Source of the DNA: Candidatus Nitrospira kreftii
GTDB taxonomy: Bacteria; Nitrospirota; Nitrospiria; Nitrospirales; Nitrospiraceae
DNA: 64,000 nt
Assembly (NCBI GenBank): GCA_014058405.1
Contig: CP047423.1
Location: 3,146,501-3,210,500 of the forward strand
Reading direction: 5' to 3'
The notes beneath the pieces are model-generated. The model saw only the letters and a list, made by a program, of their open reading frames with translations. It ran no database searches and was not told where the DNA came from. How positions within the stretch are numbered: the first letter of the stretch is position 1; every line of letters begins with the position of its first letter. The position numbers and the translations under genes are program-made. Positions 45,854 to 53,431 of this stretch are shown here, in pieces.

Positions 45854-46198
45854 TTACGAGTTCTCGCTTGGAACGATCCGTTTCAATTCTTCCACCAGCA
45901 AAGGCAATTCATGGGCCACGGAATCCCAGACGATGTCTTCGTCCACATCCATGTAATCGTGCACGATCTTGTTCCTCATACCCGCGATGGCGTCCCACGG
46001 AATCTCTGGGTACCTCTCACGGAATGGAGGAGAGACACGGCGGGCAGCTTCTCCTATTACTTGGATCAGATGCGTGAGAGCCAAGCGGAGGACGGTATCA
46101 CGATCGTAATCTTGGCGAGTTTTCTCGTGAACTAGCGAGAGTGTTTCCTGGGCTTTGTCCAGCATGTGGCCGACATAGAACAGGTCATCCTTCGGCAT
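45854..46198 (-). CDS. hepT: HepT-like toxin RNase (DUF86)
   Basis: 114 residues, helical HEPN fold. The active-site motif R75NKIVH80DY82 matches Rx4HxY of HepT ribonucleases. Such toxins cut RNA, for example tRNA 3' ends, until modified. The start overlaps the antitoxin gene by 14 bases. Length and motif are complete, so it should be active. Confidence 0.9.
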   Translation of the reverse strand: MPKDDLFYVGHMLDKAQETLSLVHEKTRQDYDRDTVLRLALTHLIQVIGEAARRVSPPFRERYPEIPWDAIAGMRNKIVHDYMDVDEDIVWDSVAHELPLLVEELKRIVPSENS

Positions 46199-46496
46199 AC
46201 TGGACCTCGGCAGCGGCCAGCACCCGATCTCTAATTCGACGGTTCAGAAATTTTTCCGTGATCAGGTCTACCTTCCGTCCACTCAAGAGGCGAGACAACT
46301 CCTGCTCCATCCGGAAGAGGGCAATGAAGCCTGGTCCATGATCGGACTCAAACTCGACAAGCACATCCACATCACTATCCGATCGAAAATCATCTCGGAG
46401 CACGGACCCGAAGAGGGATAACTTGCGAATATGATATTGTCGGCAGAACTCTTCAAGCCCTTCTTTGGAGATGCTAATATGTGCTTTCCCACTCAT
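46185..46496 (-). CDS. mntA: MntA-like nucleotidyltransferase antitoxin
   Basis: 103 residues of the minimal nucleotidyltransferase fold. The motif is G30S31 followed ten residues later by D42xD44 (LFGSVLRDDFRSDSDVDVLV). In type VII toxin-antitoxin pairs MntA neutralises HepT by adding AMP to the tyrosine of its motif. The ATG at 46496 gives the normal family start; the frame is open for 41 more codons of unlikely sequence. It precedes hepT in the operon, as in known pairs. Confidence 0.88.
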   Translation of the reverse strand: MSGKAHISISKEGLEEFCRQYHIRKLSLFGSVLRDDFRSDSDVDVLVEFESDHGPGFIALFRMEQELSRLLSGRKVDLITEKFLNRRIRDRVLAAAEVQYAEG

Positions 46497-46626
46497 CGAA
46501 TACCCATCGGATACTATGAGGACCAAGTCTCTGGGTGAAGCGGTTCCCTTAAACGTTCTAGGGACATTGCCATGCCCCCCCTGTACGCAGATTATCCTCT
46601 GCGTGCCAACCAGGGTCAAGAAATCA

Positions 46627-47987: not shown

Positions 47988-48311
47988 TTACTTCCCGAAT
48001 GCTTTTTTCAACAGCGGTTCGATCTCGCCCTTGGCGGCCATCGGATCAAGCACGTCGGTATCGCCATAGAAAGTGCCGTCGATAAATACCTTAGGGAGCG
48101 TCGGCCAATTCGTGATTTTCGTCAGCGCTTCGCGCTTAGCCGGTTGCGACAGGACGTCGATGAGCTCGTAGGGGTACCCATACTTATCGAAAAACTGCAT
48201 AGTTTCCCTCGTGAACCCGCACATCGGCATCGTCTTGGTCCCTTTGCCGTAGATCAAAATTTTATGCGCCTGTACTTCCTTCTGAATTTCTTCTTCTATC
48301 TGGTCGGCCAT
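47988..48311 (-). CDS. grxD: Monothiol glutaredoxin (Grx4/GrxD type)
   Basis: 107 residues. Active site CGFT with a single cysteine at 31 (MPMCGFTRETM), and glutathione/Fe-S-binding WPTLPKVFIDG and the DTDVLDPMAAKGE segment. Such proteins carry 2Fe-2S clusters together with BolA. It follows the bolA gene by 9 bases. Fe-S delivery is relevant to IspG, IspH, HpnH and the Rieske protein in this window. Confidence 0.93.
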   Translation of the reverse strand: MADQIEEEIQKEVQAHKILIYGKGTKTMPMCGFTRETMQFFDKYGYPYELIDVLSQPAKREALTKITNWPTLPKVFIDGTFYGDTDVLDPMAAKGEIEPLLKKAFGK

Positions 48312-48320
48312 GGCCTCCTC

Positions 48321-48587
48321 CTATGTCTCAGCTTTGGTTCGGGCAGTGAGTTCTAATGCGTGGATCCGTCCATCCTTCATGGGTGCGTCTAAGGCCTGAT
48401 AGATCAGACGGTGCCGATCTAAAAGATTTTTCCCCTCGAACCCCTCGGAAACAATGACGACCTTCAGGTGGTTCATAGTCCCTGTACGATCAGTCACCGT
48501 CACCTCAGCGTCCGGCAGGCTCTTGCGAATATATTCAGTCAGTACATCAGGTGTAATCACAGGTATCAACTCCAGCTGTGTTTTCAA
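48321..48587 (-). CDS. BolA-family protein
   Basis: 88 residues with the BolA fold: TPDVLTEYIRKSLPDAEVTV, NHLKVVIVSEGFEGKNLLDRHRLIYQAL and GRIHALELTART. BolA proteins bind monothiol glutaredoxins through a shared 2Fe-2S cluster; the glutaredoxin partner is encoded next. Small, complete, probably essential to Fe-S trafficking rather than to transcription. Confidence 0.9.
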   Translation of the reverse strand: MKTQLELIPVITPDVLTEYIRKSLPDAEVTVTDRTGTMNHLKVVIVSEGFEGKNLLDRHRLIYQALDAPMKDGRIHALELTARTKAET

Positions 48588-48814
48588 TACCCTAGCTGAA
48601 ATGTGCCCTGAAAGGCAATGAGCATCCGTCGGTGGTGGATTTCATCAATCTGGTGGTGCCTTTGAGCCAGTCGGCGACATGCAGAAGCAAGTTTGATTCA
48701 ACTTCCTGTTGAAATAATGGAGCTTCGTATGCCTTTCAATCTCAGCATCGACCTTGCAATAGTTCAGATCGTGATGGAACCCACTGCACTCCGTTCTTCA
48801 CCAAGGAGGTTGCC

Positions 48815-49249
48815 ATGAGTGAATTCAAGTCGGGGTTTTTTGTCGGGGGTGAGAGTTGCAACGGTCGGGTATTGATCGTCGATGACGAACCAGACATCCG
48901 GAAAGTCGTTCGGATGACTCTGCAAAAAGCCGGGTACGATGTGCTTGAAGCTGAGAACGGGGAGAAAGCCATTGAAATCATCAACTCAGGGGAAAATCGC
49001 CTCCTGCTGGATGTCATGGTCTGCGACATCCGGATGCCGAAGGTGAACGGAATCGAAGCAATCGCCTACTTTCGCGAGAACTATCCGCGGGTGCCGTTAA
49101 TTGTTCTGACTGGGTTCCCGGACACCGACATGGCCACATCGCTCCTTCGGCAGGGCGTCGTGGACTATCTCGTGAAGCCGGTGGAGGGTGAGATATTGAA
49201 GGCTGCCGTCGGTCGTGCCATGGAACAACGAGAATTAGCGCGCCTATGA
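48815..49249 (+). CDS. Single-domain response regulator
   Basis: 144 residues: receiver domain with acceptor Asp71 (MVCDIRMPKVNG), Thr (VLTGFP) and Lys (YLVKPVEG), no output domain. AAGGAGG lies five bases before the ATG. The stop overlaps the next gene by four bases. It starts a four-gene signalling operon with two kinases and a heme protein and could be a phospho-relay or a CheY-like switch. Confidence 0.9.
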   Translation: MSEFKSGFFVGGESCNGRVLIVDDEPDIRKVVRMTLQKAGYDVLEAENGEKAIEIINSGENRLLLDVMVCDIRMPKVNGIEAIAYFRENYPRVPLIVLTGFPDTDMATSLLRQGVVDYLVKPVEGEILKAAVGRAMEQRELARL

Positions 49250-50397
49250 TGGACAGACCACCATCGGATGGAATGGGTACGGCGATCACCTCTCCGGCCA
49301 TCGCTCATTCCAGCGTGGAAACCCAACGGAGCACATCAGCACCGGCCGTGCTTCCGATGAGAGTCGCGATCGTCGGAGCCGGCCGTGGAGGAACCGCACT
49401 TCTTGAGGTGCTCCATCAGATTCGGGCTATTGAGATTATCGGCATTACCGACAAGGATGACTCAGCACCAGGACTCAAGCGCGCCAAAGAGCTGAACGTG
49501 CCCGTGTATGGAGTGATTACCGATCTGCTCAGGGACCCCACACTCAACGTTGTGATGGACGTGACCGGTGATCCATCGGTAGAAACCGTGCTTCAACAAC
49601 ACGGGCCGACAGGGACGGCGATTGTAAGTGGACAAGCATCGCGGCTTCTCTGGCTGCTTGTCCAACATGAATCGACGTTGCAAACCGAGTTGCTCCACGC
49701 AGAGAAACTCGCCGGCTTGGGCTCGTTTGCAGCCGGCATCGCGCATGACATGAACAATCCCCTCCAGCTGATTCTCGGCATGGCTGAAAATCTGGCTGAC
49801 GAAACGGACCTCAAAACCGTGCATGCCCAAGCCGTGGATATTATTGAAGCCGTGAAACGAACGACGGCTATTTGCCGGGACCTTACCTCTTACTCTCGTC
49901 GCGCGTCCTTACAGCAAGATGGCCTTGTCAACATCAACAGCAAGCTCGATGAAGCCCTGAAGATCGCCCGTTATGCCGTGGCACTGCAAGACATTGAGAT
50001 TCGCAAGCGCTATCAATCTGACGTCGTCGTGAAGGGAAACCCTGATAAACTCCTCCACGTGTTCGTGAATCTGATCACCAACGCGGTTCAGGCGATGGAA
50101 CATCACGGCACTCTGACGCTAGAAACTACCGCTGTAGCCGGCGCAACACACGTTCGTGTTTCAGACACCGGCTGCGGCATCGCACCGGAAGTCTTGACTC
50201 GAATTTTTGAACCGTTCTACACCACGAAGCCACCGGGGAAGGGAACGGGACTGGGGCTTTACAATATCAAGAATGTGATCCAGCACATGCACGGCACTAT
50301 CGGAGTCGAGAGTCACGTCGGTCATGGTTCAATCTTTACCCTCACATTCCCCGGTGACCCATCGATTGCTGAGGGCACCCCTCGGACGGGACCATGA
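49246..50397 (+). CDS. Histidine kinase with N-terminal Rossmann nucleotide-binding domain
   Basis: 383 residues, no membrane helix. Residues 38-135 form a NAD(P)-binding-like Rossmann fold: VAIVGAGRGGTALLEVL (glycines 44, 46, 49), acidic D69 at the end of the second strand, NVVMDVTGDPSVETVL, and AIVSGQASRLLWLL. Then follow a HisKA segment with acceptor His167 (AAGIAHDMNNPLQLI) and a HATPase domain (NLITNAVQAM, DTGCGIAPEV, GKGTGLGLYNIKNV). Overlap of four bases on both sides couples it to the regulator and the next kinase. A kinase that reads NAD(H) or another dinucleotide is an attractive inference; the domain could also be an inert scaffold. Confidence 0.9.
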   Translation: MMDRPPSDGMGTAITSPAIAHSSVETQRSTSAPAVLPMRVAIVGAGRGGTALLEVLHQIRAIEIIGITDKDDSAPGLKRAKELNVPVYGVITDLLRDPTLNVVMDVTGDPSVETVLQQHGPTGTAIVSGQASRLLWLLVQHESTLQTELLHAEKLAGLGSFAAGIAHDMNNPLQLILGMAENLADETDLKTVHAQAVDIIEAVKRTTAICRDLTSYSRRASLQQDGLVNINSKLDEALKIARYAVALQDIEIRKRYQSDVVVKGNPDKLLHVFVNLITNAVQAMEHHGTLTLETTAVAGATHVRVSDTGCGIAPEVLTRIFEPFYTTKPPGKGTGLGLYNIKNVIQHMHGTIGVESHVGHGSIFTLTFPGDPSIAEGTPRTGP

Positions 50398-52871
50398 CTA
50401 CGACACCCACATCCTCACCGTCAGGCGCCAGATGGGGGCTCAAGACTAAAGTCATACTATCCATGCTTCTGGTCGGAATTGTCCCTCTCGTCGTTGGTTT
50501 AGGGATGGCCTTCTGGCAGGGGTCTCAAGAAATCCGAGAGATCAGCGGAGAAAGCTTCGAAGCACTGGCGACGGAAGCGGCTCGCAAACTTGATCTCCTC
50601 GTGGTTGAAGAAATCTCGCACACTGCCCGTATCGCTCATGATCCGACGATCATTCGGGAGCTAGAACGTCGTCGAGATGCCTTACGGGATCCAAAACGTT
50701 CGACCGCAGCCGCCACAGACCTCGAACAGCGCTGGAAAAGGCGAGACCCTGCGGCGATCACATCGTTGACAGGAAATACGCTGAGCGCCCTACTCCACGA
50801 ATACTATGCCGGAGTGTACAGCGCACCAGGCCAATTGCTGCCACAGGTTGTCCGTGCATCGACGAAGATGCTGTTTCTGACCGATGTGCAGGGAGCACTC
50901 GTCGCCACCATGACTGACCACCCGGCATTCAGACACCACGATGCCCCTTGGTGGCAAGGGGCTTTCAATAAGGCGGTGGGGAACCTCTACATTGAAGACA
51001 TCCACTTTGACGACCAGATGAACACCTATGTGTTCACAATCTCACTCCCCATCATGGATAGCTTGCGCTACGAAGCCGTCGGCGTGCTGCACCATGTCAT
51101 CGATGCCAAGGAATTCTTTTCCCCCTCAACCCATGCCATTCGATTCGGCAAGACCGGCCATGTCATGCTGATCGACAGTAGAGGCATCGTCATCAGCTGC
51201 CCAATTCTTCCAACAGGCGTTCCATTATCCGATCGAAACTTGACTCCACTCGTAACCCCCCAACACCCTGGCTGGGTGGAGGCCTCCAGCGACGGCCACG
51301 GCGGGCAATCGACGTCTGTCATCGGATTTGCCCCTCTGCCGGAAACCAGCCGGGCAACCAACGGCTCAATCGAGAATGGATCGTGGCACACGTTCGTTTG
51401 GCAATCGTCCGATGAACTGTTCGCGCCGATCCAACATCTGCTCACCTGGGTGATGGTATTCGGAGCTGTCGCCATCATGCTGCTGGTCTCGCTCGGCTAC
51501 GTCGCAGCGGGTCGCATCGTCACACCAGTCAGGCAGCTGCAACAGGCGGCACAAGCCATCGGGCGGGGCGAGCTACAGACGCCGATCCAGATCAACACCG
51601 GCGATGAGCTGGAAGACCTTGCGAGAGAATTCACACGCATGAACGCGCAATTGAAAGCCGCATTTGCAGGACTGACCGACCAGGTCAAGTTGAAAACTCA
51701 AGAAGTCCAAGTCCTGCAGCAGTCCACGGATCAGATCTTGGACGCTGTTCCAACTCCCATTCTCTTGATCGATGCCCACCAAATCGTACGCTATATCAAT
51801 CAGGCAGCCCGTGACGCGTTCACAATCCGAACACCGTTGTCGAACGCGTCCCTGTTTTCGGTGCTGTCACTCGACCAGGCCGTTCAGAAACAGCTTCAAG
51901 CAGAATTCGAGATGAACGGCGATACGGCAGCCACCCTGCCCGATATCGAGCGCCAAACGGTACCAAGAGACCCATTGCAACCTCGTACGGATCATGAACC
52001 AGCCGGTCATCGATCCGAGCTCACCATCGGATCACGTATCTACCATTACCAATGGTTCCGATTGCCCACGAAACCAGGCGAAGAAGACAGTATCGGGCTG
52101 GTGCTTCGAGACATCACCGACGAGAGTAGGCTGCAAGACAAGCTGGTCCAAGCGGAAAAGATGGGAAGCCTCGGAGTCCTAACCGCTGGAATCGGGCATG
52201 AACTCAATAATCCGTTGTTCGGGATCATTGGGTTAGGAGAAATCCTCCAGGATGAACAGGACTTGGAGCATATCAAGAGTTGCGCTCAAGACATCGTGGC
52301 TCATGGCCGTCGCATGGCCACCATCATTCGAGATTTTACCGGAGTCACCGATCGTGAAGCCTCTGATACGCCGGTGTCGGTGCCCGTAGAGGACGTCTTG
52401 GACAAAGCGTTGGCCACAGCACAAACCAGCGTTGATATGAAGGATGTCGTGATCCACAAGAGCTACGCAGGCAAGACCCCGGTATCAGTCCTCCCAGACC
52501 AACTTCGGCAAGCGTTCGTGAATCTGTTGACCAATGCCGCTCATGCCATGAAAGGCACGGGGACGCTCACATTGTCGACCGTCGTGTCAGACCATACGGT
52601 GACCACCACCGTCGCCGATTCGGGGCCGGGAATCTCCAAACAACACCTTTCAAAAGTCTTCGACCCGTTTTTTACGACGAAGGAGCAGGGAGAGGGGTCA
52701 GGTCTGGGATTGACTGTCGCCAGGCGCATTGCTCGAAAGTTCGGAGGCGATATCCGCATTGAGTGCCTCGAAGATCGAGGCACGGCATGCCACCTCATGC
52801 TCCCGATCAATACCTCAACGTCATCTACAGGAGGCCCATGCACCACCTCCGTTTCGCGATCCACGTCATAA
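50394..52871 (+). CDS. Large membrane sensor histidine kinase (Cache-HAMP-PAS)
   Basis: 825 residues. First membrane helix at about 20-42, an extracytoplasmic Cache-like double sensor region of about 300 residues (including MLFLTDVQGALVAT and RFGKTGHVMLIDSRGIVIS), second helix near 360, HAMP, PAS (ILDAVPTPILLIDAHQIVRY), HisKA with His602 (LTAGIGHELNNPLFGI) and HATPase (NLLTNAAHAM, DSGPGISKQ, GEGSGLGLTVARRI). The kinase core resembles that of the Rossmann-kinase upstream. The end overlaps the heme-protein gene by 34 bases. Confidence 0.92.
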   Translation: MTTTPTSSPSGARWGLKTKVILSMLLVGIVPLVVGLGMAFWQGSQEIREISGESFEALATEAARKLDLLVVEEISHTARIAHDPTIIRELERRRDALRDPKRSTAAATDLEQRWKRRDPAAITSLTGNTLSALLHEYYAGVYSAPGQLLPQVVRASTKMLFLTDVQGALVATMTDHPAFRHHDAPWWQGAFNKAVGNLYIEDIHFDDQMNTYVFTISLPIMDSLRYEAVGVLHHVIDAKEFFSPSTHAIRFGKTGHVMLIDSRGIVISCPILPTGVPLSDRNLTPLVTPQHPGWVEASSDGHGGQSTSVIGFAPLPETSRATNGSIENGSWHTFVWQSSDELFAPIQHLLTWVMVFGAVAIMLLVSLGYVAAGRIVTPVRQLQQAAQAIGRGELQTPIQINTGDELEDLAREFTRMNAQLKAAFAGLTDQVKLKTQEVQVLQQSTDQILDAVPTPILLIDAHQIVRYINQAARDAFTIRTPLSNASLFSVLSLDQAVQKQLQAEFEMNGDTAATLPDIERQTVPRDPLQPRTDHEPAGHRSELTIGSRIYHYQWFRLPTKPGEEDSIGLVLRDITDESRLQDKLVQAEKMGSLGVLTAGIGHELNNPLFGIIGLGEILQDEQDLEHIKSCAQDIVAHGRRMATIIRDFTGVTDREASDTPVSVPVEDVLDKALATAQTSVDMKDVVIHKSYAGKTPVSVLPDQLRQAFVNLLTNAAHAMKGTGTLTLSTVVSDHTVTTTVADSGPGISKQHLSKVFDPFFTTKEQGEGSGLGLTVARRIARKFGGDIRIECLEDRGTACHLMLPINTSTSSTGGPCTTSVSRSTS

Positions 52872-53431
52872 CCATCGCATTCCTCTTAGGAGTATGCTGG
52901 ACCGTGACAGCGCTCCATGCCGCCAAGGAGAATCCCATGACAGTCGGCATCGCGCCGGAAAAGGTCGCCGATTACATTCATGCCATACTCGAGGCAGATC
53001 GAACCTTTTACACCTCACATATCGTCAACCGGCTCCAGGAAAAAGGCATTCTGGCTTCGACGGAACAGTGGGAGCAGGAGAACACGCTGCCCTTACCTGC
53101 CCAGTTTCTTCAGCACTCCGGCCGGTTAGTTGCGGAAAGTGGAAGAGGAATCCGTTACCGGCTGATCGGATTTTCCCCGATCTATCAGCGTAATGCGCCT
53201 GCCACCGAGTTTGAGCGAAAAGCATTGGACGTTCTCAGGCGACAGCCCGATCGGCCGGTCACAGGGATTGTTTCAAGCGGCAAGAAACAGTATTTCCAAG
53301 CCATCTATTCAGACCGTGCCGTCTCGTCCGCCTGCGTCACCTGTCATAACAGTCATCCACTGAGTCCGAAACAGAATTTTAAGTTGAACGATGTGATGGG
53401 TGGGATTGCGATTACCATTCCGCTCGAATAG
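52838..53431 (+). CDS. Exported c-heme protein with Tll0287-like domain
   Basis: 197 residues with a signal peptide (to ALHAAK) and a Tll0287-like (DUF3365) domain that ends in one heme site CVTCH (166-170) followed by NSHP. In this family the heme sits in a PAS-like pocket and is thought to sense gas or redox state. The ATG at 52838 follows AGGAGG; the longer in-frame extension lies inside the kinase. It could sense in the periplasm for the membrane kinase encoded just before it, as a detached input module. Confidence 0.88.
   Translation: MHHLRFAIHVITIAFLLGVCWTVTALHAAKENPMTVGIAPEKVADYIHAILEADRTFYTSHIVNRLQEKGILASTEQWEQENTLPLPAQFLQHSGRLVAESGRGIRYRLIGFSPIYQRNAPATEFERKALDVLRRQPDRPVTGIVSSGKKQYFQAIYSDRAVSSACVTCHNSHPLSPKQNFKLNDVMGGIAITIPLE

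Follow-up and report, generated by a model that had tools for sequence, protein, structure and literature searches.

Four genes lie in order on the forward strand at positions 48815-53431 of the window (the whole 64,000-nucleotide stretch of Candidatus Nitrospira kreftii DNA analysed here). They encode a receiver, a soluble histidine kinase with a Rossmann domain (RosHK), a membrane histidine kinase with a Cache domain (CacheHK) and an exported heme protein. The features are as follows, with the basis of each in parentheses:

48805..48810, + strand: Shine-Dalgarno site of the receiver gene (sequence; AAGGAGGT block)
48815..49249, + strand: stand-alone receiver, 144 amino acids (aa), no output domain (open reading frame [ORF] and Pfam)
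49246..50397, + strand: RosHK, soluble histidine kinase, 383 aa, HisKA phospho-His H167, HATPase_c (ORF, Pfam, alignment, AlphaFold2 model)
49357..49632, + strand: putative Rossmann sensor domain of RosHK (residues 38-129), GAGRGG, D69, DVTGDP (Pfam, invariant motif, AlphaFold2 model)
50394..52871, + strand: CacheHK, membrane kinase, 825 aa, with a transmembrane segment, dCache-like periplasmic domain, HAMP, PAS, HisKA (H602) and HATPase_c (ORF, Pfam, alignment)
52838..53431, + strand: exported stand-alone sCache_heme (Tll0287-like) protein, 197 aa, CVTCH at residues 166-170 (Pfam; start from AGGAGG and orthologue starts)

The preliminary description of this locus named these four components and stated that every gene overlaps the next. 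All four are present as judged by ORFs and Pfam, and the overlaps are borne out in this genome: receiver and RosHK genes share 4 bases (ATGA), as do the RosHK and CacheHK genes. The open frame of the heme gene begins at a GTG at 52763, with a candidate ATG start inside it at 52838. An aggagg Shine-Dalgarno sequence (52829-52834) lies immediately 5' of this ATG, which opens a signal peptide and matches the start of the orthologues. The gene most likely starts at 52838 rather than 52763, so that its overlap with the CacheHK gene would be about 34 bases, not 109. The short overlaps are not kept in every species; there are gaps, for example, in N. defluvii (L142). Upstream of the operon, conserved DNA blocks are found in the intergenic gap between the BolA and receiver genes, and AAGGAGGT is invariant in 9 relatives upstream of the receiver gene.

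A public scan with organism names yielded 80 loci, and gene order was counted at 51 loci that show full RosHK and CacheHK genes together with DNA behind the latter. At 50 of the 51, receiver, RosHK, CacheHK and heme protein genes follow one another on one strand in this same order, which is more than chance; the conservation of gene order proposed as a check in the preliminary description is upheld. These loci include N. defluvii (L142), N. moscoviensis (L119) and other Nitrospirales, and when whole genomes of relatives were searched, almost all those sampled from the genus proved to have an orthologous Rossmann kinase. The sole exception (L157) has both kinases, with neither a receiver nor a heme gene found beside them. 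One genome (G011) has two copies of the four-gene block (L046 and L047); its assembly has about 3% contamination, and this may be either a second copy or a mixed bin. Another Nitrospira genome (G021; L095, 7093-7826) has an intact receiver (93%) and a RosHK fragment that contains a stop; neither CacheHK nor a heme gene was found next to the receiver. This retention of the receiver where the kinases are broken or missing suggests that it may have other partners.

By sequence, the locus has the parts of a two-component system: two HisKA and HATPase_c cores (H167 and H602) and a receiver with the conserved Asp (D71). The receiver (Response_reg, 3e-28) has all of its catalytic residues (D23/D24, the phospho-site D71, T99 and K121) and is the most conserved of the four gene products, with 81-97% identity within the genus. 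CacheHK matches dCache_1, HAMP, PAS_4, HisKA and HATPase_c. Its dCache_1 match (39.5 bits, E 6e-10) is under the curated cut-off of 45, and the same domain is matched in 19/19 aligned Cache kinases (CacheHK and 18 orthologues; E up to 0.001, best 1.8e-15).

The heme protein consists of a Tll0287-like domain (PF11845; 67.5 bits against a cut-off of 24.1, E 2.9e-18), a match shared by all 24 heme proteins aligned, with no fused signalling module; a kinase gene adjoins it instead. The Tll0287 or DUF3365 domain was named sCache_heme in a 2026 preprint, in which a stand-alone member with Cys/His ligation is redox-protein-like and a member tied to a signalling module, without the Cys, binds NO tightly (PMC12889525). 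The protein of this operon is not fused to a signalling module as the NO-sensor type is, and it lacks the axial Cys ligand of the redox type: no Cys outside CxxCH occurs in the mature protein or in 23 homologues. By ligand it thus resembles the sensor type, though it stands alone. The absence of the axial Cys points to sensing of NO or another gas, or to redox sensing at an open site, and NO or gas sensing is at least as likely as periplasmic redox sensing. Two conserved residues, H173 and M187, are candidate heme ligands. The sequence of the heme protein by itself brought no useful match from the PDB, and a search with its profile found only Tll0287, weakly and with the axial region outside the alignment. 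At another locus, a 369-aa protein has two sCache_heme domains in tandem (L101:4411-5517).

The heme protein may instead be an ordinary periplasmic redox carrier or NO scavenger, merely co-transcribed with the kinases or a target of theirs, that passes no signal into CacheHK. It does stand alone, like the preprint's redox-acting member, and of four other Tll0287-like genes in this genome, the two examined closely are both away from kinase genes. We nevertheless find a carrier or scavenger rather unlikely, as the heme gene follows CacheHK at 50 of the 51 loci, the redox-type axial Cys is absent, and a heme gene also once follows a gene for a receiver with a nested Rossmann domain (L170, described below).

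RosHK matches HisKA (1.8e-9), HATPase_c (1.8e-26) and, at residues 38-129, GFO_IDH_MocA and DapB_N; these last two matches are marginal, at 24.2 bits (cut-off 24) and 23.4 bits (below the cut-off of 25.6), respectively. This region has a GAGRGG motif, an acidic residue ending beta2 and a DVTGDP motif, and G44, G46, G49 and D69 are invariant in the 21 sequences compared. In the AlphaFold2 model of RosHK (mean pLDDT 76; about 82-93 across most of the Rossmann region), strands and helices alternate as in a Rossmann fold, which continues directly into a helix (residues 130-185) that becomes the first DHp helix; residues 1-33 are of low confidence and residues 1-37 have no secondary structure. By profile, the solved proteins closest to the domain, each matching only weakly, are acetaldehyde dehydrogenase, inositol dehydrogenase and Rex, a sensor of NADH. 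The top Foldseek match to the whole model is the LvrB hybrid of Leptospira (PDB 8vc9), in a search dominated by kinase cores, in which the Rossmann part was hardly probed. With its invariant GxGxxG, acidic beta2 end and profile like those of DapB, Gfo/Idh/MocA and Rex, it is plausible that this domain reads cytosolic nucleotide state; going by the related families, the ligand is most likely NAD(H).

The Rossmann domain also occurs on other proteins, and was present in 60 of the 148 genomes of a phylum sample. In the genome studied here (L009:2749-3849; C1:783 kb), it is joined to a NarX-type HisKA_3 kinase that is followed by a NarL-type regulator, and a second match like this one is present in most Nitrospirales sampled. 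In other phyla (L172, L174, L175, L180 and L182) it is found on GAF-PAS kinases of a planctomycete and a deltaproteobacterium, on a GAF-GGDEF protein of a deltaproteobacterium, with an MCP signalling domain encoded by a Syntrophomonadaceae genome, and on a hybrid kinase of an elusimicrobium. Its presence across HisKA_3, GGDEF and MCP outputs indicates that it behaves as a portable sensory module.

In a further set of proteins, conserved in several Nitrospirales, the Rossmann domain is inserted within a receiver between beta4 and alpha4 (L071, L085-L089, L151, L159, L163, L170 and probably L166). Four of the nested genes are located as follows:

L151:7674-8465: nested receiver-Rossmann gene
L163:7674-8465: nested receiver-Rossmann gene
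L159:451-1242: nested receiver-Rossmann gene
L170:1762-2631: nested receiver-Rossmann gene

These receivers keep the acidic pair, Asp, Thr and Lys. A model of the L151 protein (mean pLDDT 72.5, from only four sequences) has a receiver fold around the insertion and aligns with solved receivers over residues 16-264 (Z up to about 16). Of the nested-receiver loci inspected, only L170 has a related gene alongside, a heme gene that directly follows the nested one; at the others neither a kinase nor a heme gene of this family was found. The fusions, in one case with a heme gene, give independent support for the receiver, Rossmann domain and heme protein belonging to one pathway. The L170 contig is labelled Gammaproteobacteria and is possibly a misbinned piece of a Nitrospirales genome.

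Such reuse on many outputs is hard to reconcile with a degenerate domain that serves in dimerisation or protein contact and has no nucleotide ligand, as is the invariance of the GxGxxG and beta2 acidic residues, which would be unexpected in a degenerate site. The loss of any enzymatic C-terminal domain and the weakness of the NAD-family matches, at or near the cut-offs, are in keeping with degeneration, which we consider unlikely. More broadly, and as a tentative proposal that we hold to be doubtful, the ligand-binding reading would make this domain a class of cytosolic sensory input that has gone unrecognised and that probably responds to NAD(H) redox state. Kinases, GGDEF proteins and chemotaxis-type proteins of several phyla would share it, and in receivers it would even be nested at their beta4-alpha4 switch region. 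Nitrospira would combine it, on a single receiver, with a periplasmic heme sensor for NO or redox, giving one relay that reads the two sides of the membrane.

The two kinases are closely related. In a maximum-likelihood tree with 36 rows of kinase cores, those of RosHK and CacheHK all fall into a single clade (support 100/99) that excludes the 20 paralogous kinases of this genome, and the protein of the genome that matches RosHK best, other than RosHK itself, is CacheHK. This supports their being sister kinases that arose by duplication. Together with the single receiver beside them, the common clade makes a shared receiver likely, and the two kinases probably act on this one protein. The specificity positions H+11/H+12 are Gly and Leu/Met/Phe in most RosHK and most CacheHK sequences, a combination that is rare in the paralogues; as a sign of common partner specificity this is only suggestive. 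One related family (f2) has the receiver and RosHK only, with no CacheHK arm seen, and another (f4) has CacheHK and the receiver only, with no RosHK arm seen. In light of these sub-assemblies, the operon as a whole seems to consist of two kinase branches that meet on one receiver. The closely akin cores, as well as the overlapping genes and the equal dose that goes with them, would also suit a heterodimer or an opposing kinase and phosphatase pair in place of two independent inputs to the receiver; since families f2 and f4 each have one kinase with a receiver and without the other, this is quite unlikely.

The surroundings of the operon are largely fixed in Nitrospira: upstream are glutaredoxin and BolA genes (often with a cyclase gene) running away from the operon, and downstream are AI2E, bactofilin and PBP1 genes facing it. 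In the window, the monothiol glutaredoxin and BolA genes are at 47988-48587 (- strand), divergent from the operon, and are conserved there across Nitrospira. Side by side at 45854-46619 (- strand) lie small HEPN-like and nucleotidyltransferase-like (MNT) genes that resemble a toxin-antitoxin pair, and such a pair is also near the four-gene block in L110. In nine loci of other Nitrospirales (L153, L155, L156, L160, L161, L165, L173, L177 and L178), none of the flanking genes was detected in fetched DNA of up to 8 kb on each side, and the four genes stay together, which argues that the block has its own cohesion as a unit. Inherited synteny without joint function, suggested by the flanks (cyclase-Grx-BolA and AI2E-bactofilin-PBP1) that are also conserved within Nitrospira, was therefore rejected as highly improbable, the order persisting where those flanks differ.

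We propose that the operon encodes a two-component system with two inputs and one output, a reading of the whole on which our confidence is evenly divided. It builds on gene content, order, conservation, kinase kinship and motifs, from which we infer the ligands, the contact between heme protein and kinase, the shared receiver, phosphotransfer and the output. Duplication of a kinase would have given rise to RosHK and CacheHK, which retained a related catalytic core. The Rossmann domain of RosHK would bind a cytosolic ligand, of which NAD(H) or a nucleotide like it is the likeliest, and the resulting state would pass along the continuous helix (residues 130-185) to the DHp helices. CacheHK would sense the periplasm through its dCache domain, with the exported sCache_heme protein as its separate periplasmic cofactor sensor, responding to NO binding or to redox change at a heme without axial Cys. 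Both kinases would phosphorylate or dephosphorylate the single receiver at D71, and the receiver, without an output domain, would have to relay the signal to a partner by protein contact. In this way the cell could probably join a metabolic signal from inside to a redox or nitric oxide signal from outside.

The sub-assemblies, the kinase clade, the order at 50 of the 51 loci and the reuse of the Rossmann domain on varied outputs count in favour of this two-input model, as do the nested receiver-Rossmann fusions, the invariant Rossmann motif with a profile closest to NAD-binding proteins such as Rex, and a heme protein that lacks the axial Cys, like the NO-binding member in the preprint. Counting against it are L157, with no receiver or heme gene found beside its kinases, the receiver of L095 that persists where the kinases are broken or missing, and the observation that the NO-sensor traits in the preprint belong only to the fused member and the redox-like traits to the stand-alone one (PMC12889525), the heme protein here being stand-alone. 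The preliminary description took the operon for one signalling unit that reads cytosolic nucleotide state and periplasmic redox together. Conservation and the shared ancestry of the kinases bear out the composition, the topology and the idea of one unit. The reading of nucleotide state is plausible, and with no Cys beyond CxxCH, periplasmic redox becomes only one of the options.

The same description knew of no system of this composition. In the literature searched (open papers only), we found nothing on point for Rossmann or NAD-sensing histidine kinases, for such a Nitrospira operon or for nested receivers; every class of component except the Rossmann sensor has already been described. This is a real, conserved variant of the two-component system, of which the combination and the Rossmann input are undescribed in the open papers searched. 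Members of Nitrospira rank with the Earth's main nitrite oxidisers, and little is known of how they are regulated. As a signalling unit retained throughout the genus, in N. defluvii and N. moscoviensis among others, this operon is a good candidate for a core regulator that would tie energy state to redox or NO conditions around the nitrite-oxidising membrane. Bacterial signalling would gain a testable class of cytosolic sensor in the Rossmann input module, and where that domain is nested in a receiver, a ligand would control the receiver directly.

Among known systems, LvrB (PDB 8vc9) is like RosHK in having an alpha/beta domain on a long helix ahead of the kinase core; LvrB carries a receiver where RosHK carries a nucleotide-type Rossmann domain, and the superposition is poor (rmsd about 20). 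The Rossmann domains of Rex, Gfo/Idh/MocA and DapB share the GxGxxG and acidic beta2 end, with weak profile matches. RosHK has the N-terminal NAD(P)-binding type of Rossmann domain of the Gfo/Idh/MocA and DapB oxidoreductases, but a helix and kinase core take the place of their C-terminal catalytic domain; unlike Rex, it has no winged helix before the Rossmann domain (no such Pfam match). Tll0287 (PMC12889525; PDB 5b82) resembles the heme protein in its PF11845 match over the cut-off, CxxCH motif, export and stand-alone form, whereas the heme protein lacks the axial Cys and is genetically tied to a separate Cache kinase, not fused to it. Kinases of the AtoS/ZraS type with a receiver partner are similar in their HisKA and HATPase_c cores, which are nearest to the AtoS and ZraS models, and in the full set of receiver catalytic residues. 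In contrast to that type, the Nitrospira operon has two kinases, one of them bearing a Rossmann sensor, and one lone receiver; it lacks a sigma-54 activator output and includes a separate heme protein.
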